Made by a program: the position numbers and the translations under genes. Below, piece by piece: positions 5,424 to 59,640 of a stretch of DNA of 64,000 bases. The DNA comes from Branchiostoma floridae. Its lineage: Eukaryota > Chordata > Leptocardii > Amphioxiformes > Branchiostomatidae. The DNA lies in assembly GCF_000003815.2 (NCBI RefSeq), contig NC_049990.1:7196770-7260769 (forward strand), read 5' to 3'. The notes under the pieces were generated by a model, which worked only from the letters and a program-made list of their open reading frames with translations, was not told where the DNA came from and did not search any database. Numbering within the stretch: position 1 is the first letter of the stretch; each line of letters opens with the position of its first letter.

Positions 5424-8400
5424 ATGTCGACAGGACGTGGTCGTGGAAGAGGGTTTGGACGGGGGAGAATCCCAGGAATAGGCGGGAACGGTGGTGGTAG
5501 CGCGGCCGGGGACTCTGCGCCGCGTCCCGGCGGGCTGTCGACCAGAGGGTCGGTGACTGAAAACGGGACCGTTAGCCAATCAGTTAAAACTAACAACGCT
5601 GGTGGTGGATCAGGCGTACAGAACAACAGAAGAGAAGCTCAGGAGACACGGTTAAAAGGTTGTTTGTCCGTTGTTGATTCTAACTGTGATAATCAACTTG
5701 TTTTTGATACTGGGAAATGTGATTTATGGCTGATTTGCATATTCTTGGAGGACGTGTAAGGGGTTTGGAGTTTGCCATACTGAAGTGACAACGAAAAGTT
5801 GGTGTACAATATATCGTTGTGGATTTATGAATCTATTAAATGGGCAAAATTTGTATGTGCTCAAACTATTCTTGTAACATTAAATGAAGGAATCATGTCT
5901 TTATTGATTGACTAGTGAATGAATACATCATTACTCAAATGTTTTAAGCCAAAGTGTAAATGTTAACTTTAATTTTAAGATGTCTCTCTTAAAATCATGA
6001 TTGACAGGTAACCAAAAGGAAGATCCAGAGCCCAAGAAAGCTGGTGTGACCCTGATGGCCAAGTACAGCTACAAGGCCAACCCTGACCAGCCTGGCGGCT
6101 TTCCTGAACTGTCTGTCAAGCAGGCACAGATGCTGACGCTGGTCAAGAAGCATCCGAACAACGAACACTGGTGGGAGGCCAAGAATGAGGACGGGGAGGT
6201 CGGCTTTGTGCCCGCATCTTACATGATGGTGAGGAAAGTACATATAGAATACAACACTGTGTATTCTGCATTACTCGAGATACCAGCCCAACCGCCAGTC
6301 GGATCGCCAGAAGGCCAGAGGGCGATTCGATCCGTGGGAGGGCTGAGACAGAGGGTGATGTGGAATACACCACGTTGTATTTTATCTATGTCATATCCAG
6401 GTCTGAAAACACTGATTTAATTGCCAAACTGCTAGTAAAAAGGATAAAAACACATTGTTTCAACCTACGCCACCAACTTTATTCTTCAACATCTAAAAGA
6501 ATTTCATAAGCTTCCAGTGGAGTGCGCGGAGTATGTTCTATTTAATCAATTGAAGCCTGTGTGGTTCGGAAAATTATGACCTAGTCTGGAATACCCGTAT
6601 CAAACGTTATTGTGGCCCAGGTATAACATAAATTTGTAGTATCAATTGGTCCAGAGCTTTAATTTAGTTTCAGGTGCAGACCTGTACCTGGAGCCGGTCC
6701 AGTCTTGATGATAAGTTTTAGTCTGTTGTGAAAAATGTACAGTCTCATATCATTGCAGTTTGAGACATGTACTAGTACTGTTATACCTGCAGTAATGGTA
6801 CATTAGCACTAGGGTCAACCCTTATCTCCAGCAGACAGACTGCTTTTAAGTACTAGAGCTGGACCTTAATGAGATAGGCAATGGCCCAGGAAATCATAAT
6901 CTTCTTGAAAATAGGTTTTGAATTCTGGCTAGAGCAAAAGGCCTTCTCTGGGCATGACAAGGACTTAATTCATTTACATTTTTAAGTTAAATATAATGTT
7001 GGCCATACAATTTGAAATTTGGTGCTCTTAACAAAGTACAAGGTATCAGTGGGGTAAGAATGTCATGGTGATAAAGATGTTTCAAGTTAGTCTAGATCTG
7101 TATAGACAGATCTTGACGACTGTCCATCACAATTAGCTTTTGAACCAATAATAAATTGCATGCCAATTAGCAGTTTCTCCAATTAGAGAGTGGCTGGCAT
7201 GTCCTTCACCTATTGGCATTTATAATTATATGTCTTTTGTTTGCATTTCTACATTTTTTATGGAGGAAGAGGGATGAGTTTGATATTGTCTTCCACTAGG
7301 ATGTCATTGTTAGCTACTGTATTGTAGATGTGTGACTATTACTGGAAACATATACATCTAAGACGAAGAAGATCAATATTCAGACATTGGTATGACATGG
7401 AATGCCATCAGTATCAAACAGAATAAAGCCTGTGCGTACATTTATGGAGATAGGTCTAAGTCTAGCTAGGCTCTTAAGACAGTAAAGATAAGAAAGGGTA
7501 CAATGGCCTTTTTACCCCTGGCTTGGATGTCGTGCTGTTTGAATCGTTATCCATGCCCCAAAGGTAGTAATAGTCCCCTCATAATGGCCCTGTCACTGCG
7601 TTATGAATACATGTATGACTTTCCTTGCAAGAAAGGCTTTCTAGTGCAGCCAAGCCTAAAACTGTAATTTCTACCTAGGGCATTCAAAGTTGACATAAAC
7701 TTTGCTGGAGAAATAAACGTTACTAGTAGAGTTGTCATTTAATTTCTTGATTCCTAGATCAGCTACTTTTTTTGGCTGATTTAGAAAAAGAATGATTATA
7801 CTATTGAATCAGCTTCAAATGCTCATACTATAGTCATACATGTATTTTTCTTCTAGCAAAACACTTAGTAACAGTTGAAGAAAGCCCGTGTCCTCCAATT
7901 TGTTAGAGCTTTCCATCTATCAGTGCATTGAAAATTCATTTTTTATTGAAAGTGTTGATAAGCCTTGAATGATGTATTATGGCTTCTTTGGTAATATAGT
8001 ATTTGAGCAGATGCTAGGATACCTTTTAATTTCTCTTGCCCATTCCATTATAATTCAATTTTATATGATACAGTATCTGTGAAAAAATCTAGGAACCAGG
8101 AAATTGAATCAGTGTGTCCTAATGCGCTACTGCTATAATACTGACATCTATGGGTGGTTTAGAGTGTGAAAAGCTATTTGAGTCCTGTTTGCCCATTTTC
8201 AGTTGGGATCATATCAGGGGTTGCAATTTTCCCTTGCCCCCTGAAAGTATGGGTCTCATTTATATCACAGAAGAGTCAGTGTCCTAGCAACTGGTAGCTA
8301 GACAATTTCCACAGTGTCTCTGGTGAAACAAAGTCATTTTCAAACTGATGGGGGAAAAGTTGGCTAGTCTCCATGCAGGCAGAAAAAAATCAGTTCAAGC

Positions 8401-15721: not shown

Positions 15722-16314
15722 AGTTTTTTTACATCTGCTTGACATCCATGCCACTATATGACTAAAGAAAGGCAACAGGGAAGGCCGTATACAATGTACA
15801 TACATTGTATACTAGTATTTCTCTAATGTGCCATTGGTTTTGTGATATGCAAAATCAAAGAAGGAAGAACATCTGTTAGGGAATCTTTGACCAGCACATG
15901 TAGCAGTTACATTTATCATTTGAACCAGATGACATGGATTTTGATCAAGACTGACTTGTTGATTAAAACCAGTTGGATTTGGGATCTCTGGAATGATTCA
16001 AGTATGTCAGTGAGGCCACAGCAAGTAAATCTTATGGATGACATCCTTTGCTAACGTCAAATCAAATATCCAATACAGAGTGCAAATAGAGATCTAATCG
16101 AAGTGACAGACCAACTATCATAGTCAAAGACCCTTTTTAACTTCTGTATTGCACAAAGAAGAAGAAGTGCACAAAGTGACTCATCTGTAGTTGCATTGTG
16201 TCACTTACCAACTTTGCAACTGCAAATTGTACATTCAAGGCTATCACATTTGCGTCACTTCTTCAACCACACAACTAGTTTCACTTCTACAACTTTACAC
16301 TGAAATAAACTTAC

Positions 16315-19300
16315 ATCTCGTCGTGGATGTTTGGCCTCTGTAGGTATCACCACGTCCCTTGTAACAGTCAGTCCCAGAGCCTGGAAACATATAGAATGTG
16401 CTTCATCTATTTCTGTGCCTTAGACATGTATCAATATAAAGTTAACCCTCACATTACCATCACTAACCTTAGTATGACCAAATCAAAGATGATGAATACA
16501 ATAGATAGCTTACAGATACATGTGTACTAGACAATCTTATAGCTTACCATCAAGTTTGTTGAATGTTGAGTAATACCAGTAAAATTGCTTTGTATACTAA
16601 TTTGGCACACCTGATGACTTAAATTGGTAATTCAGGATTTGAGGTGTGCACAGTAATACATTTTGTGTGCTTTGTCGATAATACAGTGTATGTCAAAGTT
16701 GAAGGTACTTTTATGTAATGCCAGGGGACTTGTACACTGCATATTGTGGTATGCACCTTTAAAACCATGAATGACCTTGTACAGTATTCAATCAAAGGGA
16801 TTGAGACCCTATAACTAATGTTACATGTACTTACATGTACCGCACATTTAGACCACGAATTACAAAACTTACCTCACAGAGTATTCAATCAAAGATTGAG
16901 ACCCTATTCCATGCTACCACACACTTTAAACCATGAATAACTTCATACAGTATTCAAATCAGTGAGTATTCAATCTTTTGAGATTGAGGCCCTGTACCAG
17001 GATATATGTTCTTACCGCCACACTTGAGTGGGTTGGTCGGTACAGACCAGGTCCCATCCACCTGGCACACAGTGGCAGAGAAGGTGAGCATTCCGCCGTC
17101 GGCTTCGCAAGCCAGGTTACACACGGTTCCGGGTGGGTACGCCCCTCCGTTGATGCAGTTGGAGATGATCATTTTAGGGATAGTCAGTGGGTCACAGGTC
17201 TTGATGGCTGGGTTAGGGTTGGTCAAACCTGGAAAAAGAGTGAGGAATGGCATTGAATCAGGGACCTACCAATGCATCATAACTTGACCAATACATGTAC
17301 TTTCAATGTACCACTACTGTATCACTACTGATGTAAAGAATTGTTTAAACAGCAAATGCCACAAGAAGCTCCTTTAAGTCCCCTTCTAATGCAAAATCCT
17401 TGCAAAAATAAACTTGTCTACAGTAACAAGTAAAGCTGGAGGTCCTGAATTTCAGGAGAGAGACACCTTGAGCATGTTAAAGATCCCACCGGTCACTACA
17501 CTTAGAGAAGAGTAGGGGTCCTTTGATGGAGCGATATCGATTGGATCAAACACTTCAGTGCGGTCTTACATAGCTTGTGCTTACTATACGTAACTGGTGT
17601 ATTATGCCCATAGCTAGTTTACAGGTTATGCCAAACAGTTACGGTTTGGTTACTGTACACAAATCCACGTTTCATCCAGACATCATCATTAACTTGGGTT
17701 CTTATTCTGTTTATTCTGTCAGCACTGTGTGTCTGTGGATGAAAACAAACATGGCTGAATTCTGCAGAATGAGACAATTCAAAATCCAAATATAGGGTAT
17801 TTCTGAAGTTTCAGTACCCTTCATTATGCCATAACTTTGTCAATCCCAGCTGGTCTAGACTGTCTTACTCAGCAGCACACCGGCCCTTATAACTATGATA
17901 ATATAAAGCAGACATCAGTAACACCACCATGCAGTTGACCCACTGTGATGTAAGTCCTTCCCTCAGCTGGACCTAATCTGCATCACTTTGTGTTTCTGAT
18001 GCCAGGCCTCTTGAAGATGGTCTTGATTTTTGTCAAGGACAGTTCAAGGTCAGAATCGTGGAGGTCGACCTTCTGGCCTCCGTGTGACACAACCATTGAT
18101 CTCTGTGGTTTCCTTTGACTTTAAGATCATCAATTAAGGCTTTATCAGGAAGCTAAGGGCCAATCAGAACCATCCTGTCAGGACCTTCCTATTCACTCCA
18201 TCTGGATCACTCCCCAACTAAGGTCATTGCTGGGTTGGGTTTAGACTGGAATCCATCCTATTCCTTCAAAAAAATATGACCTTCCCCAGTTTGATTTGTC
18301 AAAATTTATAGTTGAACTTGTGAAAACAGGTTAGGAGAGGAATGTCCATCTAAACCGGACTGCTTCCAAACCAAGATTGCTCTGATTGGTCGAGGGCGGT
18401 CAGGTGACCGTTGCAATTCTTTGCTACCCTGCCTGATGGCGCGGTGCCAACATACTGGTGGCTTTCCTAGAGTATTTTCCCAACCATGATGGTCTAGAGA
18501 AGGCCAGTAGGAGCCCATGGTCCATTAGTTCTGGGGGACAGAAACTACCATTTGCTTGCTATCAGTGTTGGGATGGTTTTGTAGTGTTGTGAAAGAAACA
18601 TCAACTCTGCCTTTTCACCATCCCCTCCATTTTATTCCTATGCCACACTTACCGCTAGCACTGGGGTTGCCGGAGGTCACACACTTGGGAACGACGCAGA
18701 AGTCCCAGTCCAGTTTGGACTGCACATAGCACCAGGGCCGGTCCAACAGGGTGGGGTCAGGGTTTCTGAAAAATCATACAAACAACATTATCAGCTGTAA
18801 ATCTTCAAATATAATTTTCGTGGTGTCTTCCCGCAATCATGACACTGCAAATATGTGTTTTTGATAGGCAAAGGGGTAACCAACCGGAATTCTGAGAACA
18901 CTCTAACTATAGGACCTTGCAGTCTAACTTCCCGTCACACAATAGATATTTTTGTGATCGGGCGGGGGTCTGGCATCCAGGCTATGACATGCCCAGCCAC
19001 TCACATACATGTAAATGTAGATGCACAAGCAAGCAAACAGACAGAAACAGAAAACAGACAAACCTCCACACACGCAGAGGTGTAATATCGACGAGGAGCA
19101 CTAACCTGCAGTAGTTGTGTGGTCCAATGAAGTACTTGGCGAGCTGGGTGGGGAACTTGGCCATGTTGTAAAAGCGGTCCAGAGCCTGGTTCCATGGCAC
19201 ACAGGTCTCCCCGGTCTGAGTCTTGGACACCGTGCCCTGGTACTTCTCACCCCTGTTGGAGTAGCAGTTCTTGTCTGCAAAGACAGGAAGTTGGTCAAAC

Positions 19301-22300
19301 CATCAGAGGATTTTAACCAGAGTTGGTATACTAACAAAATATACCAATCCCTCAGAATATTAGCTGTTCGTGGTTCCACCAATGTGACTGTGGCTGTACA
19401 TGTATGTCTGTCATATATTTGCACTTTGATGTTTTCATTTTGCATTTCTACATTTTGATGGATAAGGTTTATGGATACGTTACAGCCCTGTATGAGAGGG
19501 CTTTGTTATTTAAACATTTATGGAGGTGTTAGAGAAAGCAAACATGTCTTCTTACTGACCTTGATTAGGATCTGACTGCCCAGGGCAGACGGCTGCCACC
19601 CTCCAGTTGTTGGGATCTGGACACATGCACGCACACTGCTCACTACGGTAGCCTGCTGCCGGGCACGGGGTCGCACGGTTTGCACACTTGGCTGGGGAGG
19701 AAGGAGGACAATATGGCAGACTTTGAGATCAACCAACTGATTTGAAAATTAATGTACAGTAACTGCTGAATGTTATACATGATGTATCTATCTGTTTTGA
19801 GTATCGCTCAGGGCTGTCTCAACTCCTGGACCCGTCCTTCCGACCCAAAATTTGCTTGTTGGAACAGAAAATAACTTCCATAACTTCCATAACATCCATC
19901 CCCAAAAGTGCCATGAAATTGTTGAAAATGTATTTTTATCAACAACATGGACACCCAAACAATGAGTGGGACGAAAAAAGATTTCAAGCTGGTGACAGCC
20001 CTGGTATCGCCTATTCACATGTTTTCACAGGGACCAGAAGCATACCTGTACCTGAATTTTCTGAACTAGAACCCACCAATATATCTATGTATGCAAAACC
20101 GAAAATCAAAGAAAGTAAAACAAAAGCTTACAATCGCAGGTGTAGAGCTTGTTGACAAACTTGATGTCATAGTAGCTGAGACTGGTGCGTTGGCCAAGAA
20201 GGTTCTGGAAGTATGGGTTCTTGGAGATAATCGTCTTGCGGTTGGCAGGGCTCGCACTGTATGTCTGTAGAATAAACAGGAAATGAAAGTTACAGGATTG
20301 ACCACCAGTTGTGCATGGTGTGCATAGTCCAGTGGTTAGCGCCCCTGTCTCTGGAACTAGCCGTGAGTTTGATTCTGGCTGTGTCGATCACCCAACATGC
20401 ATGCTACAGGAAAGGGTTGCAGTCCTTATGACGGGAAGTTAAGCCGTGGTCCACCGTTCATTGTGCTTGTCGAAAAAGCTAGGGGAATTTCCCCTGTACA
20501 ATGAACCTGTGAATACTGTATATAGTTCTATCCTTTCAATCACGACCAGTGGATGACTAGCTCTTCAGTGAGTTAAAACTAGATAAGATCACTTTCCTTT
20601 CTTACCAAACACAGCAATACATATACTCAGTCAGTTGATGTCATGTCATTTTAGTAGCTCTCAAAGGATGCAAAAGATTATCCAGTCACAAAAAGTGACA
20701 AGAAATACCAGAAGTTCTGCTTCAGCACCAAGGACAGATGCCAGTAGGCCAGAAATCATAGCCAAATTTCGACAGGTTAATACCTGACCACGTGCATAGT
20801 TTCTCAACAATCTTCTTGAGTTATGCTGTTCAATCCCAGTGAAACACAGCTACGCTCCCAAAACATAACCTTGACAAAGGTAAATATTATGAAAATGTCT
20901 GTAACTGACAACTAGTAAATGAACGACGATATGCATATTATAAATACCCTTGTTGACAAACGTACTAACTGTTACAACTCTTCTATCTAGTCCGTTGACA
21001 AAAATGTAATTTCAACATTCTAGTTACAAGCAGAGATGTTGGTAACAAATGGTTGATAAAGACACTGACCGCATCGTCCCACTGCATGATGGACAGGTAG
21101 TCAAATGGGATGTCGAACAGGTTGATCTGGCCCGGGGTTAGCTTGGCAAACTTGGATCTGCATGGGTAGATCGTAAAAAGGTAAACATAGCTCGGATATA
21201 TTCTCTTGACAAATATCATCCTTTCATAGCCCTTGCCTAGTCGCATCATAATAGCCAATCTCTACTTGATTAAAATATGCCCCAAAAGCAGTTTCTCAAG
21301 CAACTGGATATGATTTTGGACACGGTAAGACGTTTGAGGTAGAATCCACTGCCTTTTGCCAGCTTTTTGGCGCATCTAACTTCTGGATGTTAAACATTGT
21401 TGTCAGAATGTATGCTTAACACTTTTGCTAGCCATACATGACACTAATAAATTTATGACTTGACAACAAAGTTGGCAGGAATATGGCTGACGGAAACAAA
21501 CATTTATAGCTTGCATTTGAACTTGTTGTTAAATCCTACTACAAAAGATTTCCTTCAATCTTGAATGTCTTTAGCATTACAAATTTACACCTACTCTTCT
21601 CCCTTCTTGATGTTCTCGGTGAGAACGATGACTCTCTGGTCACGGTCTGGACGTCGGATCTCAGGATACAGCCCCATCGCACTGCCCAGAAGATGCATCG
21701 CTACAGCTGACTGTATGGTTGGAGGTAGAAACACATTCATTTTAATTTTTTTTTTTTCGACTCATATTAGGATTAACATTGTAGAATTGATTTGCCATAC
21801 TTTGTTGTTAGTTAAATTGTGTTAATATTTGTTGATTCTTGCTGTATTACCATTTGTTTGATTTGACATTGTTATCAATTGGTGTTGTGTTGTATGTATG
21901 GGTTTTTCCCCCCAGGGATCTTTGAAAAATGCCAACTAGGTGACAGGTAACCCTGGTTTAATTTTTTTTTAAATAGTCTATTAGGGTCTAACATACCCCA
22001 CTTCTTCCCAACATCAAATGCTATCTGCCACAACAAAATTAAGACCATCGATGATAACACGTCTAGTACAGAATGTACACAATAAAACAAGTTCCACTAA
22101 AAGTTCTAGGATGACAAACACGAAATAAGAAATGAACAAGTAACTAAAGTGATACACACCGGATCATTTTTGTAGCTGCCGTACATACAGGAGTCAGAGT
22201 ACGTCACTGCTTGTGAGCCTGTTCGCGCTCTTCCTGTACCAGCCCCACAGTTTCTAGAAAGAGAGAAAAAAAACACCAAATGTTGGTGAAAAAGAGCGCA

Positions 22301-25300
22301 TACTAGTGAAACCGCTTTTAATTGCTTTTGATAATCTTAATGTACGGTTGGTTCAATCCTTCAAATGTTGAAATATAGCAGCAAACATCCCTTTAACTGC
22401 AAACTTAATATGTCTGTATTAACAAAAACAAGCTACCGAGACAAGCTAAAAAAAGTACAAAGCCAAGCAACCAGATTCAGCATGAACAACTACCACAAAG
22501 GTGCTACATGTACCTACAGTGTTACAGAACCACAACAGTTCACAGTGTTACGTCTACATGTGTCCAGTCTTACGTTGAGTGTTTGACGAATGTGATGAAG
22601 TCCTGGTGCCCTAAGGTTCCTGCCAGTTGTGGTGTAGACTCAGCAAACTTCACGCAGGTCTGTGAGCTCCATGTGGACATGGCCTTCATCAGCTCTGCTC
22701 TATCCCTGGGTGCTGCACACAAGGCAAAAACAGTATAAATCTACACATCGTTTCGATGTCTATCAGACACCATAATCAGGGTTAGAATGACTGGATCTGA
22801 TTCTTGCTGCTACTTATAGCCGATGTAGGTGGCGCTGCTGCAGCAAGAATGCTGTCCCAAATTTTTCTCAGCTAGTATCCCTCCTTGTCTCTGTTTATGC
22901 TGAGTACTTTACCAACCTGATAAAACTATTTTCAGATATTAATCTGCGCTCATAATGTAATGTAATGTAAAATGCACTCCAATGTACTTAAGAGCACCAA
23001 ATTAAAAATAATTATTTACATAAGAGATCTACTATCTGAATATCTCAAAATACTAAGCCATAGGCTAAGTAGGTTGTCATCCAGTGTATAGGTCACTATA
23101 TTGAAAAGGGATAGCCCATCCCTCTCCTTTTAGTTTTACATCCCGACAGAAGTCAAGTACTGATTTTTCAACCAGATGAGGGTAGATATAGAATTAGAAA
23201 TACCATGTTAAGTGCCTTTCACAAGGACACTACAAATGTACGTCAAGCCAGATTTGCTGGAATCAATACTGTGACCTTTTGATCTCATGTCTGCTAGTAT
23301 ATCCACTCTATACTATACTGTCAGTCAGTCTATGCAGACTATGACAAAACGCAAGTACAATGACAGCGTACAACGACAACGAAAAAATACATAAACTTAA
23401 TGATACAACTTGGAAACTATTAAGGTCCAGAGCTCAATTCAAGGGGCTTGTTGGCCTATGGCCACGTCACTATATCCACTCTAAACCTTTGATAATAAGA
23501 ACAAATTGTGTTAGAATTTTCACTCACCTACACTGGCATCGAACTTGTAAGGAACAGTTGCTTGTGGCCATAACAACAGGGGATCCTTGGCAGCTTTCCT
23601 TTTTACCCTGGTGGACCTCGGATTTGGTGACTGAAAATGAAACAAATCAACATGTACAATTTTGTGTAAGACTAAAAGGTAAAGGTCCCAAGGTAGTGAT
23701 ATGCTTTTACCTTCCCAACCGAAATCGAGTACATGTTACACCAAAAGTTAGATGGAGTCAGGAAGGTCAATGGATTTCCAAGTAAACGTCCGACCCAGTG
23801 CTACCAGGAGTTGGACCCATGGCGCTCACTCTCGTGTCTGGAGGCCTAACTACTAGGCCATCAAGGCAATACATTAATGATTCTGTAACATGAAATTTGA
23901 TGAAACGTTCCTTTCATATGCAATATGGAGGATGAAGAACTCCATCTTCACAGAGGGAAAAGTGAACAGAATTTGGATAATGTTCCATAGCCCGTCGTTC
24001 TGTAGTGCTGGTGAATAGTGGTGAATCCACTTTTCGTGTTCTTGTAGATTACTAAAAGTTTGATAAACATAGTAGACAATCCCATTACAAAATATCTTGT
24101 TTTAATATTAAGGAAAGGAACCTCTAGAATTGTTAGTAAATAATAAAGACAACGATTTCTAAGTTTCATTTCAAGTACACTTGAGATTCAAACAATGTTG
24201 TCAGCTGCAGCATCATGTTGTACAGTTATATGGGTTTTGTTCCCGCCACACAATTATATCCCAGGCGAAAGACCACATGTGCTTTGGCTTTCAAGTGCTC
24301 AAAGGTAGATAGACATAATCATGATCGTCTTGAGTAGAATGAAAGCTGACAGGCTGGATTGTGGTGCCATCTGGCATGTGTGGTGCCCAAAGGTAAGGTG
24401 TGAACATACCAAGGGCTGGTTCCCACATAGGACGAGCTCGAGGGGCATATCTTTGTTAGGCTTAGGGGGGAAATTTTGTGTTTCCCGTTACCTGATCAAC
24501 CCTAGCAAAAACCTGCGTACCCTAGTTTTATGGGGGGGGGGGGGACTCTGCGAAGGGACGTTTTTTTCATAATGTATCTTTGTGATGAAATTTTACAAAA
24601 ATAATCATCTGGTGTATTTTGCCAGCCAGCAGGTACCCAATGAGTAGTGAGGCTGTTTAACGTGGTCGCGGAATTAACCCCTCAAGGCTTTCTATATTTG
24701 AGATCATGACTTCGAGCAGTTCATGTTAGAATTGGCAGTAACTATTGTACGCTGAGATGCACCCTTACAATTTTGATAAGTGGGGTCGGTTATTTTGAGA
24801 TAAACGAGCTCAAGGTGTGATCTCCTCGAACAAGGGACCTCTGGCTCTATAACCCATCAAACAGGATGTATGTAGTCGGATCAAGGTGCTTACTTTCACC
24901 TGACCTCACCTGGGTCGAATGAGGAAAAAGGTAATTGGCGCCTTTCCCAAGGATACAACATTTGGGCCTACTAGAGGTTCGAACCAAGAACCTTTGGTTT
25001 TTAGTAAGCGACCTTAATCACAAGACCACCATGCCATCCTCGGCCTCCGTTTTGGCGATGATGACACACTCATCTCTTGGGGCAAACTGGGTGACCACAG
25101 GCTTAAGTCAGCCCAGATGTCACTAAGGTCTTTGCAATGTCGGCACTTTTTGTGTGTGTGGAAGGACGGGGCACTTATCAGATTATCTGATGGTGGATTC
25201 CCTTGCGGTCACTTGGCGGTTGACGTCTGACAATCGTAACATGGTGTGGTGATGCTTACAATTATCCATGGGCTGAAGTCGAAAAATCTTAGCCTGGAAG

Positions 25301-28300: not shown

Positions 28301-31300
28301 AGAGTAAGGTTTGACTTACTCACTTTCGGATTGACACCTACATTTTTGGAATGGACACTAACATTTTCGAAAAGTGCATGAGGTGGCATCTTTAATGTTT
28401 TCAAGGTGTGGCTCTCAAGCACATGATCTCCATTTTCGACTGAGAGTTACGTTCCTAACCGATGTTGGGTACCCATGTTCCCCTGAGTCGAGTGGGGAAA
28501 TAGGTGTAAACTTAAATGCCTGTTAAGTCAGCAACGTTAACCAAAAGAACACCTTGCCATCTTCAATTAAGCCGTATATCGGCGGCGTTCACGATCGTTA
28601 GCCACAGCTGCTGGTAGCTGAGCATAGGAGACACGATATTAGATTAGAAACAAAGGCTGCTGTAAGATCCTCTTCCAGGGCAACATATTTCCGAATGCAC
28701 CACTCACCACAGCGAGAAACATCTGTCTCTCGTTATGCCTTCGATCCATAATGTTTGCATCAAGATAAAGCCTCAAGAAAATTCCAAGACGGCCACTTTG
28801 AACGACGTGACTTGTCAAAAGAGCTGAACTGCTTCGGGTCGTTTTCAAAAGATGACAACAAAGTTAGCAGCGTATTGACGGTATTTTTATTAGGCACCTA
28901 ATGGTGCTGCAATTCGAAAGTAAGTATGTGGTCAACAAGTTTGGGAGCGTGGATTACAGTGTGTTCTGAGGATTTTTATCATACTTCTGTCCCGGCTTAT
29001 AGCGGCCCGCCCAACATCCAGCCAGCCGGGAGGGGCCAGTTACAGCCCTTTACGGCGGCGAAGTTTAGCGAAACACAGCTAGTACTACCGGTAAATGTGT
29101 GGTCTACAAATTGTGTTTACATCCTTCGATAAATGAGTTAATGGGATCATTAGAGTCTGTTCTTACATCACTAATGAGGTCGCCATTCTCAAATAAACTT
29201 CAGTGAACTGCATTGAACCACGTTGATGAGGCTCCTTGATTGTACGAGTACAACCAACGTGACTCGAGATTCCTGCTTTAAAGCCTTCACACACTCAGGA
29301 CTTTCCCAAGACTTTGCTCATGACCACTCCCCAGCCAAGGCCAAGTGCTGGGTTGTTGGAGTATCCTAGAATCTATCCTATTCTAACTCTAGTTCGATCC
29401 TCTTATCACTTTCAGGCAGAATATGGCTTGCCAGATTGATTTTTCAAAATTCATAGTCACAAACTTTAGTATATTCAAAGACCGGCAGAGTACCTCGCCG
29501 ACCAACTCCCGACCACAGATGACCTTGCGGTTAACTGCTACTAACCATGGTCTGGGAAGGTCGGGAGGTCATGAGTCAGCTTTTAAAGACTTTCTGCATG
29601 AGGTACTCCATCAAAGTTGCGGCAGGGGCACGTAATAAATCTACTAGTCTCGGGGCAAATAAAAAAAATTATGGACCTTGTATCAAAACACATTTCTGCA
29701 GCTACTGCTAACAGGACAGTCGCCTTGCCCAAATTAACGGTTCAGACCACCCATGTTCATGAAATTGAGCAAGAAACTAGGACTACATACAGTATTAGAT
29801 AACATAAAAGCACATGTTTACGGCCATTCTAGCATTCAGCCCTTGATAAAAGTAGACATACCTCCAGTATTTTCTTTAGCTGCTCCCCTCTCTCCTTTGA
29901 TAACACAACATTGAGGTGGAAATCAATTGTGTCGTGCTCCTGAAACAAACACAAATATGTTAGCAATAAGAAGAATAATCCCACACATCCACCAGGCTTT
30001 TAATTCTTTAGATAACGTAGAACATCTTTTCTACTTACTCCCGTGAGCAACTGAGTTGTGTATGTAAGGTCGCGTTCTTGCTTGCTACTGTTGAGACTAC
30101 TAAATGAGATTGTTTATCGCCAAATGTCTCTGAGAATGTACTTTATGTCCTCTATGAACACAATTGACGCCACTGTTTTTACGCTTCAGGTCTAGACAAG
30201 AGTACGTATGTGGGTTGCTGAGAAAATAGCTAAAAGAGGACAAATGGGCTGAATGATATGCCAGAGGAGTTAGCACAGAGGCAAGCAAGGATGGGTAACT
30301 GGTCGATATTCTATGGCAGCCTATAGTACAGTAGTGGAAGCCGCTTTATTGCACACCCTATTTTCCAGTACATTTCGTTCAATTATCCGAATGGTACAAA
30401 CCGCACCACCATGGGATTTGGGGATTTCGTGCAATTAGCAGAAGTGTGTGATTATTCATTGTGCAATTAACTGGCTTCTACTGTATTTTCTCAGCCACCC
30501 AAGGAGTCTGGTTAGAGACTAGTGCCGGTTGTGGTCTCATTAGCCTGCGCTCTCTGATGAGAAGAGATGCTTCTTCTTTTCGTTAGTCCCGAAAATGCGG
30601 ACCATCTGTTGCCCGGCAGGGTCGCGCTTAGAACCGTTGGAGGATATGCAGGGTGACATAAGACAAGGCCTTTGGTCGCCCTGGGTGTCAAGAGAAGCGA
30701 CTTTGAACTGAAAGTCATTCAGTGGGGCTTGTGCATAGAGAAGGATTAGGCGTCAAAAGCCTTCACGTCTGATAGCCCAACACACTTATTGTAGAGGCAA
30801 TTCGGTGTGATGGACCAAATTCGTGGCGACATCACATGACATGTTCATACCTACTCTCCGTACTCCCTAGCTGTTTCGACGCCGTTCTATTCTAAAATAC
30901 TAGTATAAACGCTTTGTTGGGCGTTTTTGTCTTTAGATATGCTGAAAAGAATACACAAAAAGCTGCCAAAAATAAAAAGCCCGAAAAACTCCTAACGCAG
31001 TAAAGGACGTAAAGAACAAGTCGAAGCCTATCTCTTCCGTCATTTGATGATCACGAGCAATCTGAGCAATAACCAACTTTGATACGTTCCAGCGATCTGG
31101 TGTTGACTTGTAGTTTCCTTCGTTATATTTCTATTCAACAGAGACCACACAGGGCATTTGCCAAGGCATTCGTATTTCTCCATGTTATATTGTGGGAATT
31201 TTTAGACCATTTCAGCGATCCGTGACCTTGGATACTGCCTGTGTCAAGTTGAGCCAGACGCCGCATCAAGTAAGATGGCCGACGGCGTTCATCAACGTAG

Positions 31301-37300: not shown

Positions 37301-39442
37301 AGTGTTGGGCTCCCGAAAATAGTTTCATCAGGTTGGTAGAATATAGGATGAAGGAGAATTCTTTGTACACAACCAGTGGGTACTTACATAGCTTACGTTT
37401 CGATGTCTCTCAGACACCTTCGTCAGAGCTTCTCAGTGTTGGGCTCTTTAAAGTACTGGGGGTTTGACGCTCAAAGCCTCCACATAGAGGGCGTTCTTGA
37501 CCTATTTGACACTGTCTTAAGTTTGTTTGATTTTTCTCTATTCCGTATTTGTTTACTTTAATTTGACGGCACAAAGCCAAGAAAATTATGTGGTGCCCGC
37601 ACCAGGTTCAAAATTAGAGTTTTGTTTTCAATCAAACGGGAATTTGATGGACTCCCTTGGAAACCCACTTTGGCAAAGCGGAAGGGACCACCCATTTGTT
37701 TTTGGATACTGAGTAAGTAAACGGTCCTGGGGTTTGGCCGCCCCCTCCTCTACATGAGTTGTGTGCGTAAATCAAATATCATGATTTACTACCCTTTCCA
37801 CCATGTCAACTGTAGTGATTGAGTGGGTACTAGTATACATGTGACAACGGGACGGGAAAATTCAAATTGGTCAGTTAGATGAATACCTTGAAAAATAACA
37901 CTGATTTGTGAATCATTCTGTGTCCAGAAGTAAAGAAAGAAGTGCCATGAAAAAGTTGTCACCAGATGCCTAATAAGCCTACTTTCGGAAGGAATGCAAT
38001 TCGCAATGCTTGCAAAATCATTGGATTCAGAAATTAAGAAACTGGAATTCTACAGTTTTCTATACTTGGCCTATGGTCTAAGACTATTGTAACCGGGCCA
38101 CCACCCTCGAATCTTTGGCTATCCTAGTTGCCAGACTGTTTCCGGGCCTACATAGGCCAGCTCTTTAGTCCTTTAGATCTAGGGCAAAATACCCCTAAGG
38201 AAATTTTCCCTAAGCTCCCATGGAAAGAACTTTTTAGACAGGCAAAAGTCGTGTTGTCCGGGCGGGGATAGAAGCAAGTACCGAAGAAACCCAGTCTGAA
38301 TTCCTAAGAGAGACTGTTGGTCAGGTTAGGTACTAGGCGTTAGCCTCTACCAGGCTCCAGAAAAATACCAGGCTCCAGAAAAATACTAGTAGTAGAAATT
38401 GGCCAAATATTGTACTCCTCGACCATGTAACTCCTCTGGCGTGTTTTCTGTCTTATTTGGCCAATTTCTACTATTTTCCCAGCGACCCGTGGAGCCTGCT
38501 GGTGGAGGTTACTAGTATTAGATAGGCGTTACTCTGATTACGGCGAAATGGGAGCGCAGGAGAAGTCTCCGAGCCGCGGGGCGCATCTGGATCCAGTTTT
38601 ATTTCTCCGTTTGATGCATGGTTCTGATTTGAAGCGGCGTACTTTCAATACCTCGCCTGGAATGTCTCAGCAAAACCGACCAAACCGACTCCACAGGACT
38701 AAAAAAAGCGCTGAAAAAGTCGTGTCCATTTTTTTATCGAACTTCCAGTGTTCATGGAGTGGAGCCATGACGTAAACCAGTCATCAGCAAACATTATGAG
38801 CTCATAAAATATATGTGTTTACGACGATATTGTGAAGTAAAGGAAAACGCAAAGCTTCTTTGGTTGAAGTATCACAACTCTCTTTTCTAAATAGATTCAA
38901 GGAAAAAACATTGACAATCACTACTAGAAGTCGCAAGACTTTCAGACGAGCCCGCTTCTTATTTGTCGCGTCTAGGACATGCTTGCAGTGTGACATAAGG
39001 TCGCAGTGTTATCTAACGCAGTTTGACTTGCCACTGTCAGGATTAGGGTACTTCCCTGTCTCAACAGACACGGCTTTACAACCTGAGCTACTACACCTAC
39101 GTGCGAAATCTGATAGTGATCGTTTTCAACCAGAGCGACGCAAAAAAACGCAATTTTTTCCTACCTTATCTGCTGGACAGAAAAGAAAAATAATTTGTGA
39201 CATATGGTCTTGGTTACCGCCTTACGACACTGGGCAAATCTCCAACACGCTGTAAATTTCCGTCCCAATCGTACGATAACCCATCACAGAGAACGGCATA
39301 AACTTGCCACAAGTTTGCAAAAAGCCACTCTATTCTAACACATCATAAAGTGGTAACTAAAAGGTCTTACCTCAGCTGCCGCCATGTAACACATCATTAG
39401 AACTGCTAGCGCACACGCGGCGCAAGTAACTCTGGAATCCAT
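16315..39442 (-). CDS. Secreted astacin-like pseudoprotease with kringle and sushi domains (3' incomplete)
   Basis: Thirteen minus-strand exons join with matching phases: 39442-39371, 29939-29862, 23630-23528, 22712-22574, 22253-22160, 21710-21595, 21157-21070, 20264-20132, 19691-19560, 19274-19106, 18765-18653, 17228-17016 and 16380-16315 (1516 nt, 505 codons so far). Exon 1 is a signal peptide (MDSRVTCAACALAVLMMCYM). Exon 2 is a short propeptide. Exon 3 has RVKRKAAKD, a furin-like site, then LWPQATVPYKFD, the standard start of mature astacin. Exons 4-8 match the astacin fold (TCVKFAES, SIMQWDDA Met-turn, YYDIKFVNKLYTC end). The zinc site is degenerate: HLLGSAMGLYPE stands where HExxHxxGxxHE is required, so only the first His remains. 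Exon 9 is a six-Cys EGF-like module. Exons 10-11 are one kringle (CYSNRGEKYQG, HNYCRNPD, RPWCYV). Exon 12 is a sushi/CCP domain. Exon 13 starts a second kringle (CYKGRGDTYRGQTSTTR). Exon 6 must end at GA|GTAGGT; one step later gives an in-frame TAG. A binding or scaffold role outside the cell is inferred. Confidence 0.85.
16740..16990. repeat. Tandem repeat of about 90-115 bp in the astacin-like gene
   Basis: AGTATTCAATC with a following GATTGAGACCCT recurs near 16784, 16879 and 16965. Each unit also holds an AACCATGAAT or GACCACGAAT stretch. The array abuts exon 12 and its last unit touches the donor region at 17015. Confidence 0.65.
20318..20540 (+). mobile_element. tRNA-derived SINE
   Basis: TAGTCCAGTGGTTAGCGC at 20325 is an A-box-like head and GAGTTTGATTCTGGC at 20365 is a B-box-like stretch about 40 bp later, the spacing of a polymerase III promoter. 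A tRNA-unrelated tail follows with short inverted sections (GGGGAATTTCCCC). It lies in the intron between exons 7 and 8 of the astacin-like gene. Confidence 0.6.
23790..23872 (-). mobile_element. tRNA-like SINE head, minus strand
   Basis: GGAGTTGGACCCATGGCGCT followed by CTAACTACTAGGCCATC resembles an inverted tRNA-derived head (B box, then A box). A degenerate SINE copy in intron 2 of the astacin-like gene. Confidence 0.4.
24895..25045 (-). mobile_element. tRNA-derived SINE, minus strand
   Basis: GAGGTTCGAACCAAGAACC is a palindromic B-box-like stretch, and AAGCGACCTTAATCACAAGACC sits where an inverted A-box head is expected. The preceding GGCGCCTTTCCCAAGGATAC tail is shared with the copy at 25395-25510 (GTGCCTTTCCCAAGGGCAC), which shows one family. 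Confidence 0.55.
25395..25510 (-). mobile_element. tRNA-derived SINE, minus strand
   Basis: Shares the CCTTTCCCAAGG tail with the element at 24895-25045. GATTTGAACCCAGGATC then GGGTTACGAACACCCTCCCG supply the inverted tRNA-like head. Noncoding. Confidence 0.55.
26000..26012 (-). promoter_or_regulatory. CTCF-like motif
   Basis: On the minus strand the sequence is CCGCCAGGGGGCAGCGCTA, very close to the core of the bilaterian CTCF consensus (CCxCxAGGGGGC). It lies in intron 2 of the astacin-like gene. Chance occurrence cannot be excluded. Confidence 0.4.
27037..27110. mobile_element. Minimal TA-flanked foldback element
   Basis: Arms of 28 bp begin TACAGTCAAACCTGTCTATA and end with the reverse complement, with one mismatch (AGTGGCC against AGCGGCC). 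Only about 18 bp of loop separates them. TA borders both ends. A weaker relative may lie at 27550-27770 (CCTGCCTATAGTGACCACC). Confidence 0.8.
29310..29635. mobile_element. Foldback repeat, family with copies at 18190-18560, 37076-37200 and 60830-61020
   Basis: CCGACCAACTCCCGACCAC is followed about 50 bp later by the inverted ATGGTCTGGGAAGGTCGGG. The same pair occurs at 60860 (GACCAACTCCCAACCAC ... GAAGGTCGGGAGG) and 37126. Shared CCAGTTTGAT/CAAAATT(C/T)ATAGT sequence ties in the copy at 18190. Noncoding dispersed family. Confidence 0.6.
30327..30485. mobile_element. MITE with TACAGTAG termini
   Basis: The left end TACAGTAGTGGAAGCCGCTT TATTGCAC mirrors the right end GTGCAATTAACTGGCTTCTA CTGTA. 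Internal sequence of about 100 bp is noncoding and includes a second GTGCAATTAG motif. Inside intron 1 of the astacin-like gene. Confidence 0.75.
33120..33350 (+). mobile_element. Dispersed repeat, inverted partner at 40738-40955
   Basis: Shared landmarks with the other copy (reverse-complemented) are GTCTCTACCAGA, AATAGGGG, AAGCCTAGTAGGA, TTGGCCTAG, GTGAACTGACCGGCCG, TCCAGCTGACA and TCTGCTTGGAGACTA. The two copies are about 7.5 kb apart in opposite orientation, one in intron 1 and one upstream of the astacin-like gene. Confidence 0.75.
35697..35822. mobile_element. Foldback element of the CCTGG family
   Basis: TATTCGCTTTGGTCCGCTCT and GTCGAAGGTCGCTACC mirror GGAAGCGACCTTCGGAAGCG and CACCAAAGCGAACAAGGCCG. 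Related half-elements occur near 43657 and 56835 (AGCCTGGA(A/G)TCCAG then TTGTTAGCGTT). Noncoding. Confidence 0.65.
38350..38502. mobile_element. MITE, copy 2 of the 13023-13198 family
   Basis: Shares AGTAGAAATTGGCCAAATA, GTTTTCTGTCTTATTTGGCC and AATTTCTACTATTTTCCCAG with copy 1, in the same inverted arrangement. Its left end is locally duplicated (CCAGGCTCCAGAAAAATA twice). It lies in intron 1 of the astacin-like gene, near the signal-peptide exon. Confidence 0.75.
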
Positions 39443-49298: not shown

Positions 49299-49333
49299 AT
49301 ACATACTGACCAGAGAAGACGATAAATTGTACC

Positions 49334-50464
49334 ATGGACTACTCAAATACTACTACAAACATGCATTCATTTGCCAACTCAACAGCCTACAACAACACAG
49401 GTGTCGTCAACTGCAGCAATGATACAAGAGGCTCATGGCCACAACCTCCCTCACCAACGCACGAATTAGTGTTTGTATGCATCGGACAGTTGGTGGCAGG
49501 TATAGGACTGCTTGCAAACTTTCTTGTGATCTACATCATCGCGAGATACCCGGCCATGCGAACCGTCCCTAATGTGTTTGTGTTAAACTTAGCGGCCGCG
49601 GACGCTCTGTATTGTTGCGTGACACCTCTTTACACAGTGTATGCTCTCCACGTAGACTGGATACTTGGTAATGCGATGTGTAACGTCTACTTCATCATGG
49701 AGTACGTTAGTGCGTTCTGTAGCGTCTGGTTCCTGACTGCTTTGAGCATCGAACGATACAAGGCCGTCACAGATCCGATAGGACACTCACAGAAGATCTC
49801 CCAGAAGAAAGCCTGGGTAGCTAGCGTTGTTGTTTGGTTCTTTGGTTTAGTTGCTGCATCGCCGACTCTGGTTTTCGTGAAAACTGCCGTTCATGCTTTC
49901 TCCTGTGAGTCGGGAGGCAAAATTCATCACGTAACCCAGTGCGATGTCTTGGCTCCAGAAGGCATACCAGAAGAACTCTTAAATAAACTCCGTGGCATGT
50001 ACGGGTTTACAATAACCTTCGTAGTGCCGTTGTGTATCATCATACCTCTGTATGTTATCATATGGCGCAAACTGCGGGAAAAGAAACCGTCTACTCTATC
50101 CATGCATCTAATCAGGTCCAGGAACAGAGTAACCAGAATGGTTGCCGCTGTTGTAGTCTTCTTTGTTATCGCCTTGCTCCCCTGGCACACTTACTGGATA
50201 CTTCAATATTTTAGCTTGATTCAAAACGTTCCCCACGGTCTGTATGACGCCTGTTTGGCTCTTTACGTCGCAAATTCCGCTGTGAATCCGTTCTTTTATG
50301 CGCTAATGGGCGATAAGTTCAGACGGTATATCAATATTGTGTTTTGTAGATGGCGTCTCTGTAGAAATAATACTCGACAAAAAAGACGGGTGCGGAAAGA
50401 GTTCAATATCCAGTTTGGATCTCCGCAGTCAGAAACAGTTGTGCCCCATGATACACGGCTGTAG
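49334..50464 (+). CDS. Class A (rhodopsin-like) GPCR, receptor A
   Basis: A single coding exon of 376 codons. The extracellular N terminus has several N-glycosylation sites (NTT, NSTAYNNT, NCSN). Seven hydrophobic segments follow. TM1 has GLLANFLVIYIIARYP and TM2 has VPNVFVLNLAAADALY with the conserved LAxAD. Cys in NAMCNVYF and in the HHVTQCDV loop can form the standard disulfide. TM3 ends SIERYKAV (ERY instead of DRY). TM6 has LLPWHTYW, lacking the usual Cys of CWxP. TM7 is NSAVNPFFYALMGDKF (NPxxY form). The basic third loop and C tail fit G-protein coupling. The overall pattern resembles somatostatin, opioid and galanin-type peptide receptors, but a subfamily is not safe. The start is ACCATGG at 49334, kept in all three copies. 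It is 5.7 kb upstream of its paralogue. Confidence 0.88.
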   Translation: MDYSNTTTNMHSFANSTAYNNTGVVNCSNDTRGSWPQPPSPTHELVFVCIGQLVAGIGLLANFLVIYIIARYPAMRTVPNVFVLNLAAADALYCCVTPLYTVYALHVDWILGNAMCNVYFIMEYVSAFCSVWFLTALSIERYKAVTDPIGHSQKISQKKAWVASVVVWFFGLVAASPTLVFVKTAVHAFSCESGGKIHHVTQCDVLAPEGIPEELLNKLRGMYGFTITFVVPLCIIIPLYVIIWRKLREKKPSTLSMHLIRSRNRVTRMVAAVVVFFVIALLPWHTYWILQYFSLIQNVPHGLYDACLALYVANSAVNPFFYALMGDKFRRYINIVFCRWRLCRNNTRQKRRVRKEFNIQFGSPQSETVVPHDTRL

Positions 50465-55023: not shown

Positions 55024-55053
55024 ATACATACAGAGAAGACGACAAATAGAACC

Positions 55054-56189
55054 ATGGACTACTCAAATATTACTACAAATATGCATTCATATGCCAACTC
55101 AACAGCCTACAACAACACAAGTGTCTTCAACTGCAGCAACGATACAAGAGGTTTATGGCCACAACCTCTCTCACCAACGCATGAACTAGTGTTTGTATGC
55201 ATCGGACAGTTGGTGGCAGGTGTAGGACTGCTTGCAAACCTTTTTGTGATCTACATCATCGCTAGATACCCAGCCATGCGAACCGTTCCCAATGTGTTTG
55301 TACTAAACTTAGCGGCCGCAGACGCGCTGTACTGCTGTGCTGCGCCTCTTTACACCTTGTATGCTCTACACGTAGATGGCTGGATACTCGGCAATGCGAT
55401 GTGTAACGTCTACTTCATCATGGGGTACATCAGTGCGTTCTGTAGCGTCTGGTTTCTGACTGCTTTGAGCATTGAACGATACAAGGCCGTCACAGATCCG
55501 ATAGGACACTCACAGAAAATCTCTCAGAAGAAAGCGTGGGGAGCTAGCGTTGTTGTTTGGTTCGTTGGTTTAGCTGCCGCATCATGGCGCCGGCTCTGGT
55601 TTTCGTGAAAACCGACGTTGAGGCTTACTACTCCTGTGAGTCGGTGGGCAAAATTCATCACGTAACCAAGTGCGATGTCTTCGCGCCAGAAGGTATACCA
55701 GAAGAACTCTTTAACAAACTCCGTGGCATTTACAGCTTTACAGTAAACTTCGCAGTGCCGTTGTGTATCATCATACCTCTGTATGTTATCATATGGCGCA
55801 AACTACGGGAAAAGAAACCGTCTACTCTATCCATGCATCTAATCAGGTCCAGGAACAGAGTAACCAGGATGGTTGCCGCTGTTGTGGTCTTCTTTGTTAT
55901 CGCCTTGCTCCCGTGGCACACTTACTGGATTCTTCAATACTTTAAATTGATTCAAAACATGCCTTATGGTCTGTATGACGTATGTTTGGCTCTGTATGTC
56001 GCAAATTCTACCGTCAATCCGTTCTTTTACGCGCTATTGGGTGATAAGTTCAGACGGTATATCAATATTCTGTTTTGTAAATGGCGTCTATGTGGAAACA
56101 ATGCTCAACAAGAAAGGTGTATTCGGAAAGAGTTCAATATCAATTTTGGATCTCACCCGTCAGAACCGTCTCATGATACACGACTCTAG
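55054..56189 (+). pseudogene. Class A GPCR, receptor B, frameshifted
   Basis: A close paralogue of receptor A, collinear from MDYSN to the final DTRL. At 55584-55588 there are 5 extra bases (ATGGC) relative to GCATCGCCGAC in copy A. This shifts the frame in TM4, and the first frame stops after 184 codons at 55608. The second frame is open from 55557 to 56189 and carries TM5-TM7, including LLPWHTYW and NSTVNPFFYALLGDKF. There is one extra residue before TM3 (DGWILGN). The TM3 position that is Glu in copy A is Gly here. Everything else looks maintained, so it may be a recent pseudogene, an allele or an assembly error. Confidence 0.82.
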
Positions 56190-57450: not shown

Positions 57451-58593
57451 ATCATCATATCAACTATATGAGGGGGGTTAATTGTGCAGTGATAGCATAG
57501 TTCCATATGTTTTGTTTACCCAATTATTCAGTTGTAACACTACATGTAATAGTACTTAGTATCCCACGTAACACTATCGAATTACTGCATTTTGTGGGTA
57601 GGATCATGCAAATAAAAACCATCACTATGTAAATGGCACAGTTCCGTAATTGTGGTACGACATCTTTCTCTTTGATATGCTGGATGGATGCTCGTCTCTT
57701 AAGCACGTCTGCAAATTCCACTTAGTCTTCACGGTCGCTTTTAACATGGATACATTTGAGACCTCGTGAGTCCTAAGAGTGTTCATGACCGTGAAACTTC
57801 CTAACTGGTACACTGAGTCTGATATCATTTTCTGTGTGCTGAAGTGACTCGAAACTGCATTAGAACTGCACGAATGCTGCCCGGGTCTGCTCGAGCGAAC
57901 ACGTCCGTGCCCGGAATCTAGTCCGTGTGATGATGAGTACTAGTAATCTTCTCCGGCAAGCTGTATTAAGACGATTGAGCTTCCGTAATGTTAGCTTATT
58001 GCCCGTATTGCAATGAGTGCACAGGAGCAAAACAGGAGGATTGAACATCACTTCAGTCGGACCAACACAGCAACACGATACAGGGGTAAGAGAGATTTTA
58101 CCGTGCTGCAGGGTTATCAATGTAGTGATAATAGACTGCCCATGCTCCACTATCATCCAGGAGTTCCCAGAGGACTACATACAGGTAGGATGTTCATGGT
58201 GTTTATATACTAGTACATAAGGCGTTTATGTTTGTTGGTTTTCGCGCGATTTTCCATGAGTACGTCAGGAAATGATCGATGGTAATGACTTTGGATTTCG
58301 GTGACACGTCCGCCACGTAAATAATGGTTTTGTGGTATGTTGTTTTACCACTTGTATTCCATAAATGTACCTTTGTTGTTGTAGGGTTTCTGTCAACACG
58401 CTGACGCCACCAGACGCCGGTGCATTTGTAGCGGGCCATACATTAATTTTTTCGCAAGGCTGAAACAATGTAGCGAGACTTCTTCACATCTGCAAGAAAA
58501 TTGCACATTGTGATACTTCCATTGATCATATCCTGATTCGACCTGCTGTCATAATTCTAGTACGTTATCGAAAAGCGTATGAGAACAAGGACC
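57451..58593. other. Spacer between receptors B and C
   Basis: No supported gene. Some TACTAGT-type short repeats. I could not align it convincingly with the upstream regions of copies A and B, so the third receptor has an independent or fully diverged 5' flank. Confidence 0.5.
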
Positions 58594-59640
58594 ATGAATC
58601 ACTCTAACATCATAGATAATTTCATCCCTAACATAAACGATGACAACAGATCTGAAACCTTGAACATCAGCTACAGCGAGTGGCCGATGAATCCCACTTC
58701 AACCACTGTACTAGTCTTTGTGTACATCAGTCAACTAGTGGCAATCGTAGGATTCCTCGCGAACTTGCTGGTCTTGTACATCATCATCCGGTATCCCGAC
58801 ATGCGGACGGTTCCCAATGTTTTCGTCCTCAATTTAGCTCTGGCGGACGCTTCGTATTGTTTGTCCATCACGTTTGACACAGTTGCTCAGATACACGACA
58901 GCGGATGGATATTTGGGCGAGACATGTGCGTTGCCGGCTACGTCATGAGCTACGGCAGTTCGCATTGCAGCGTGTTCTTTCTAACCGCCATCAGTTTCGA
59001 ACGGTACAAGGCTATCACTGACCCTATCGCACAGCAAGGTGTTTGCATGAAGAAGGCTTGGATCACGTGTGCTGCTGTATGGTGTGCTGCTGCACTTTCC
59101 GTAACACCGATTTTCGTAGACCCCAACTTTTTTGTCTACGTCATAGAAAATCATTCAACTGGAGGAAACATTACAAGATCGTCCTGTAAATTTCTGCATC
59201 CGCCCGCGGTATCCACAACGCTGTACGGTAAACTGCGTGTTGTTTACAACTTTGCGGTTACCTACGCCTTCCCAACGTGCATCATGATCAACCTCTACAG
59301 TGTGATATGGCGGAAGCTTCGACAGACCCCGCCGTCCACTCAATGCAAACAAGCAACCGAGTCAAGAAACAAGGTTACCAAGATGGTGGTCGCTGTTGTC
59401 AGCTTTTTTGTCGTTGCCTTGTCTCTTTGGCAGATTAATACGCTACTGCTGGAGTTCAAGTTGGTGACTCATATTCCTGATGCTCTGTTTGAACTTGGTT
59501 TGCTTCTGTATGTCACCAACTCGGCGATAAACCCCGTCTTTTATGCGTTACTAGGAGAGAGGTTTGGCTCGTACGCGCGAAAGACAATGTGCTGTTGGCG
59601 TGTTGGCAGAAAGGACGGGCGGTCAGCCCAAAATGTCTAG
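58594..59640 (+). CDS. Class A (rhodopsin-like) GPCR, receptor C
   Basis: A single coding exon of 348 residues from the ATG in GGACCATGAATCAC, which aligns with the start of receptors A and B (MNHSN against MDYSN). An in-frame ATG 15 bp upstream has a poorer context. N-glycosylation sites are NHS, NRS and NIS. It shares the family signature: GFLANLLVLYIIIRYP, MRTVPNVFVLNLALAD, DMC before TM3, ISFERYKAITDPI, IWRKLR at the third loop, and NSAINPVFYALLGERF. TM6 is FVVALSLWQINTLL, so both Cys and Pro of CWxP are missing. The position that is Glu in A is Ser here. It is clearly older than the A/B split. A peptide-type ligand is inferred only from general resemblance. Confidence 0.86.
   Translation: MNHSNIIDNFIPNINDDNRSETLNISYSEWPMNPTSTTVLVFVYISQLVAIVGFLANLLVLYIIIRYPDMRTVPNVFVLNLALADASYCLSITFDTVAQIHDSGWIFGRDMCVAGYVMSYGSSHCSVFFLTAISFERYKAITDPIAQQGVCMKKAWITCAAVWCAAALSVTPIFVDPNFFVYVIENHSTGGNITRSSCKFLHPPAVSTTLYGKLRVVYNFAVTYAFPTCIMINLYSVIWRKLRQTPPSTQCKQATESRNKVTKMVVAVVSFFVVALSLWQINTLLLEFKLVTHIPDALFELGLLLYVTNSAINPVFYALLGERFGSYARKTMCCWRVGRKDGRSAQNV

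Follow-up and report, generated by a model that had tools for sequence, protein, structure and literature searches.

An astacin-kringle gene with a dismantled zinc site in a lancelet: a probable secreted pseudoprotease

Catalytic astacins depend on the zinc motif HExxHxxGxxH, which contains the general base, and on a Met-turn SxMHY, which supplies the zinc-ligand Tyr. The window, a 64 kb stretch of lancelet DNA at G000:C12:7196770-7260769 of a 513-Mb assembly, encodes an astacin domain in which most of these residues are replaced. Is this a gene on its way to decay, or one retained for a role other than proteolysis? Judging from sequence comparisons, we consider it probable that this is a complete gene for a functional secreted astacin pseudoprotease that acts by binding.

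The zinc site and the Met-turn

The exon carrying the zinc site (21710-21595, minus strand) has an open frame that encodes SAVAMHLLGSAMGLYPEIRRPDRDQRVIVLTENIKKGEE (SAVAMHLLGSAMGLYPEIRRPDRD) and has AG and GT at its flanks; the observation made in an earlier sequence-only reading is confirmed. Where the aligned lancelet paralogues have His-Glu-x-x-His-x-x-Gly-x-x-His-Glu, the window astacin has H-L-L-G-S-A-M-G-L-Y-P-E. That reading had proposed the loss of the catalytic Glu and of the second and third zinc His, and alignment to 27 intact-site lancelet astacins confirms the replacements by Leu, Ser and Pro, respectively. The first zinc His and the Met-turn Met are retained. Because SIMHY reads SIMQW, the zinc-ligand Tyr is lost together with the His next to the Met, and the site is worse than first noted. 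Just one of the five ligand and base residues remains, and the gene presents neither HExxHxxGxxH with its general base (it reads HLLGSAMGLYP) nor SxMHY. Having lost the Glu, the zinc-ligand Tyr and two of its three His, the protein would be expected neither to hold a catalytic zinc nor to act as a general base. The fold markers said to surround the site are present in the case of TVPYKFD, TCVKFAES and YYDIKFVNKLYTC, but they belong to exons outside the interval 21070-22253 in which they had been placed (Table 1), and the Met-turn is preserved in part only.

A six-frame scan of the whole 64 kb found no HExxHxxGxxH. The shorter HExxH occurs five times, never extending to the full motif, and a sixth occurrence, at 16932, spans a stop. 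None lies among the astacin exons, and between 16.3 and 29.5 kb the motif is absent from every frame; two of the five fall within the long 5' introns of the full gene model, at 29597 (+) and 33799 (-). An alternative exon with a complete HExxH between 21158 and 22159, which could have restored the site, was sought in every frame and is absent.

Gene anatomy

Using a spliced aligner written for this analysis and applied to the window and the paralogues, we assembled a minus-strand gene of 13 exons (39442-16295, 511 aa), the two most 5' of which are candidates. Its layout comprises a putative signal peptide and pro-segment, a furin-type RVKR, the astacin domain, a Cys-rich piece, a kringle, a CCP-like module and a second kringle that is cut short (Table 1). 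The part that begins with the furin exon and runs to the stop codon comprises 11 exons and 461 codons with no internal stop or frameshift, and all ten of its introns have GT and AG ends. The GC3 of the gene is 0.654, against an intron GC of 0.389. The astacin homology is not a chance resemblance, because the Pfam Astacin profile is matched over positions 2-188 of 189 (E 2.5e-39) and the closest solved structures are TLL1 and BMP1 (1.5e-23 and 1.1e-20, obtained with a query containing nine extra residues absent from the final model). The four fold Cys columns are all retained, as counted from the sequence, the disulfide pairing itself being predicted, and the family glutamate and xxRxDRD are present as PEIRRPDRD. 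A nine-residue micro-exon, IAFDVGKKW (~22024-21998), was dropped because exons 22253-22160 and 21710-21595 meet in phase 0, which is also the case in the paralogues; including it gives a Pfam astacin score of 132.2 bits, against 135.3 for the final protein.

Table 1. Exons of the astacin-kringle gene and its 5' candidates, in window coordinates
Feature	Position	Strand	Basis
Candidate first exon, signal peptide MDSRVTCAACALAVLMMCYMAAAE, phase-0 end	39371..39442	-	Signal-exon criteria; no homology or transcript support
Candidate pro-segment exon EHDTIDFHLNVVLSKERGEQLKKILE	29862..29939	-	Phase 0/0 between AG and GT; pro-segment scoring
Furin-type RVKR exon and mature-domain start KAAKDPLLLWPQATVPYKFDASV	23528..23630	-	Spliced alignment
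Astacin exon with TCVKFAES	22574..22712	-	Spliced alignment
Astacin exon, inner cysteine pair NCGAGTGR...SDSC	22160..22253	-	Spliced alignment
Zinc-site exon, HLLGSAMGLYPE replacing HExxHxxGxxHE; ExxRxDRD retained	21595..21710	-	Alignment and splice model
Met-turn exon, SIMQW replacing SIMHY	21070..21157	-	Alignment and splice model
Final astacin exon, carries YYDIKFVNKLYTC	20132..20264	-	Spliced alignment
Cys-rich linker exon SKCANRATPCPAAGYRSEQCACMCPDP...	19560..19691	-	Splice model; similar stretch in L019
Kringle exon 1	19106..19274	-	Pfam Kringle 5.1e-18 across both kringle exons
Kringle exon 2	18653..18765	-	Splice model and Pfam Kringle
CCP/sushi-like module	17016..17228	-	36-42% identity to three modules of L019/L045
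Truncated second kringle start, ...DCYKGRGDTYRGQTSTTRCKFISV then stop	16295..16380	-	Paralogue comparison

The first kringle is complete (PF00051, profile positions 1-79 of 79), and the CCP-like module has no Pfam match at E<=1. The second kringle ends after 18 homologous residues; the sister gene, L019, has two complete ones. Three paralogue kringles and inspection by eye revealed no complete second kringle downstream as far as 13600, in a region that includes a run of ~100 N. Rfam at gathering thresholds gave no match in the whole window. Elsewhere in the window, an open frame with an SH3 domain (6001-6417, +) probably belongs to a neighbouring gene as one of its exons, and a rhodopsin-type GPCR (55024-56186, +) is split across two overlapping frames, which may reflect a pseudogene, an intron or a sequence error; open GPCR frames flank it at 49310-50461 and 58561-59637.

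The signal-peptide exon is the sole candidate in the 36 kb between 23640 and 60000 under the criteria used, and its phase matches the next exon. The putative pro-segment exon resembles the aspartate-switch exon of the paralogue L009 (MFEGDMALTFEQ) and reads F-H-L-N at the aspartate switch F-x-G-D. It was scored against six reference pro-segments, taken from FxGD matches upstream of an astacin domain and having longer open tails, with exon ends inspected for L009 only. With all columns, the score is matched by two other 20-mers and by 24 of 20,000 shuffles. Without x-G-D it is reached by no other of the 45,778 open 20-mers in the window and by 1 of 20,000 shuffles; when F is left out as well, the figures are no other 20-mer and 11 of 20,000 shuffles. 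The zinc-blocking Asp seems to have become Asn in this candidate exon. Our initial idea that this change accompanied the loss of the zinc site was set aside, as a segment upstream of L019, VKINMVLEPEQ, also has no Asp, with the caveat that it is a weak match equalled in score by 11 of 45,778 window 20-mers. The best stretch of L017 scores higher than that of L019 and has no good splice context; the best of L018 is equally weak.

Paralogues and constraint on the domain

At least 80 Pfam astacin matches are distributed over the window and 32 further loci in the genome, all of which were retrieved (L014 is counted with L013 and L015 with L016, as each pair is probably the same gene). The zinc motif can be read at 32 of these 33 loci, the exception being L038, and is intact at 29 and dismantled at three: the window gene, L032 (QQIMHVLGFYLE) and L033 (HHLMRAIGFHYE, with MHF). 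In L032 (G000:C16:5956300-5960800), the altered exon at 2187-2362 is accompanied by a retained SVMHY. In L033 (G000:C4:18605000-18609500), with its altered exon at 2500-2675, the Met-turn reads SVMHF and the domain is otherwise open; the neighbouring astacins are intact where readable. Both genes retain the remainder of the fold, which favours the pseudoprotease reading of the window gene. L033 at first seemed to lack its last exon; this was a query artefact, and a closer query recovered the exon. The alignment and the tree use the earlier L033 row, and the 30-row alignment leaves out the partial L013, L016 and L038.

The three dismantled astacins fall at three positions in the tree. As these positions are separate and some nodes are weak (62-95), independent loss of the three zinc sites is likely but not certain. 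The sister of the window gene is L019 (UFBoot 95), which lies on the same contig, shares 80 of 203 residues and has an intact site; the window branch measures 1.05 and that of L019 0.55. No near-identical second copy of the gene appears among the at least 116 matches listed (115 of 408 candidates were scored). In two other paralogues, L034 (2250-3032) and L013 (6218-6873), both with intact motifs, part of the zinc exon lies in tandem arrays of ~5-6 copies of 134-138 bp units. At L001/L011 (G000:C2:22472067-22472672), a 718-aa open frame close to a kringle-like stretch contains an astacin domain that reads as intronless, unlike the multi-exon paralogues.

Among the 27 intact-site rows, 36 columns are near-invariant (at least 90% one residue). 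The window gene keeps 28 of them, including the four Cys, the family Glu, RxDRD and the Met, and differs at E108L, H111S, F115L (shared with L019), H117P, Y158F, H165Q, Y166W and F171Y. The changes are concentrated at the ligand and base columns (4 of 5, vs 4 of 31 elsewhere; Fisher p 0.005). The dN/dS check that the sequence-only reading had proposed for this lineage was performed with a codon model of six genes and 201 columns, in which two points are uncertain, the boundary preceding the final exon of L019 and a very small exon of L020. Neutrality (omega=1) on the whole window-gene branch was rejected (2dlnL 16.5), with synonymous sites saturated, and a separate omega for this branch fits no better than a common one (2dlnL 0.5); in the free model the branch length sits at the optimiser's bound. 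Within one genome and with saturated synonymous sites, the gene therefore combines lost catalytic residues with purifying selection on the rest, as expected of a pseudoprotease.

The astacin domain might persist solely as an inert structural spacer, with all function residing in the kringle and CCP-like modules, a reading that we regard as possible but rather doubtful. These modules resemble those of the sister, and a review reports that the inactive domain is discarded in some of the ADAM pseudopeptidases (PMC11266112), but the constraint described above was measured on the astacin domain itself.

A young unitary pseudogene, in which the site was lost under relaxed constraint and the truncated second kringle is the first visible damage of early decay, is unlikely. 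The truncation itself and the branch longer than that of the sister would fit it, and recently begun decay is compatible with the branch test because the branch includes time before the zinc loss. Had the whole domain drifted, one and the same neutral tail since that loss would be expected to fit every codon. Over a grid of values, the optimum for the rest of the domain is zero, and the four ligand and base codons take the largest value tried. The best joint value, 0.75 substitutions per codon, loses 2dlnL ~27 on this grid and predicts 5.6 stops in 212 codons, of which 0 are present. The rest of the domain tolerates a short neutral tail (0.1-0.2 substitutions per codon) at a cost of less than half a log unit, but the ligand and base codons demand far more drift than the remaining domain shows, and by hand count at least 9 base changes fall in these four codons and that of the Met-turn His. 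The 461 codons free of stops and frameshifts and the coding-like GC3 also oppose recent decay. Tajima relative-rate tests between the window gene and L019 are significant (p<0.05) for 3 of the 5 outgroups used; with the motif columns removed, 0 of 3 near outgroups give significance (p 0.069, 0.053 and 0.37). The argument for age from the drift grid would be weaker if positive selection had fixed the changes at the site quickly, but such selection would itself imply function. With its open frame, canonical splicing, GC3, four Cys and rejected neutrality, the locus fits a retained, non-catalytic domain better than a decaying gene, in agreement with the earlier suggestion.

That the protein is still a metalloprotease, through another exon or another ligand set, is highly improbable: the first His and the Met-turn Met are retained, but the general base, two His and the Tyr are all gone, and HExxH is found neither among nor near the astacin exons.

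A putative binding role and related proteins

For the probable pseudoprotease, we propose the following course. The protein would be synthesised with a signal peptide and a short pro-segment, and RVKR would probably be cut by a furin-type protease. The astacin domain would then fold, and its retained family glutamate could still hold the mature N-terminus. With its kringle and CCP-like module, the protein would most likely act by binding, possibly by occupying ligands or substrates that L019 also recognises or by serving as their scaffold in the extracellular matrix. A bolder version, which we offer as speculation and think unlikely as a whole, is that pseudo-astacins arose at least three times in lancelets and that the window protein became a dedicated secreted antagonist of L019, first through loss of the pro-segment Asp, perhaps in the common ancestor, and then through dismantling of the zinc site in one copy.

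The gene shares with the astacin family M12A (BMP1/tolloid, meprin, astacin) the fold signature, the four Cys, ExxRxDRD, the Met-turn Met and a putative pro-segment before the domain. It differs in lacking the general base and the zinc Tyr, in retaining a single zinc His of the three and, in the candidate exon, in having no pro-segment Asp. The astacin-kringle genes L009, L017, L018 and L019 have a similar exon pattern, a furin-type site and a kringle nearby, and L019 has CCP-like modules too, but HExxHxxGxxHE and SxMHY are intact in all four; the CCP-like modules of L019 number three, and it carries a further two kringles. The ADAM pseudopeptidases of M12 (ADAM2, 11, 22, 23 and unc-71) likewise have a metzincin domain with HExxH dismantled and the Met kept, as in the ADAM2 zinc region QLLSLSMGITYD (PMC11266112, Table 2, an excerpt). 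Unlike the window protein, they belong to another subfamily and are transmembrane disintegrin proteins.

In the excerpted text of a 2024 review of inactive metallopeptidases, the M12 pseudopeptidases are ADAMs and unc-71, and astacins are named once, as metzincins only (PMC11266112). A 2023 astacin survey (PMC9848320) accepted a sequence only if its zinc motif was intact, so that dead-site astacins would drop out of such a survey. An excerpt on tarantula gives the motif and/or cysteines in 9 of 12 transcripts (PMC5553785), for which reason other pseudo-astacins may exist unremarked; in salmon louse, the corresponding excerpt reports the motif in 8 of 8 astacins (PMC10828956). Among the titles and abstract openings listed in searches of the openly available literature, no pseudo-astacin appeared.

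The intact-site sister on the same contig makes a ready pair for studying the change from protease to binding protein. In addition, the three losses seen in this one genome, apparently independent of one another, suggest that the astacin fold is useful beyond catalysis.
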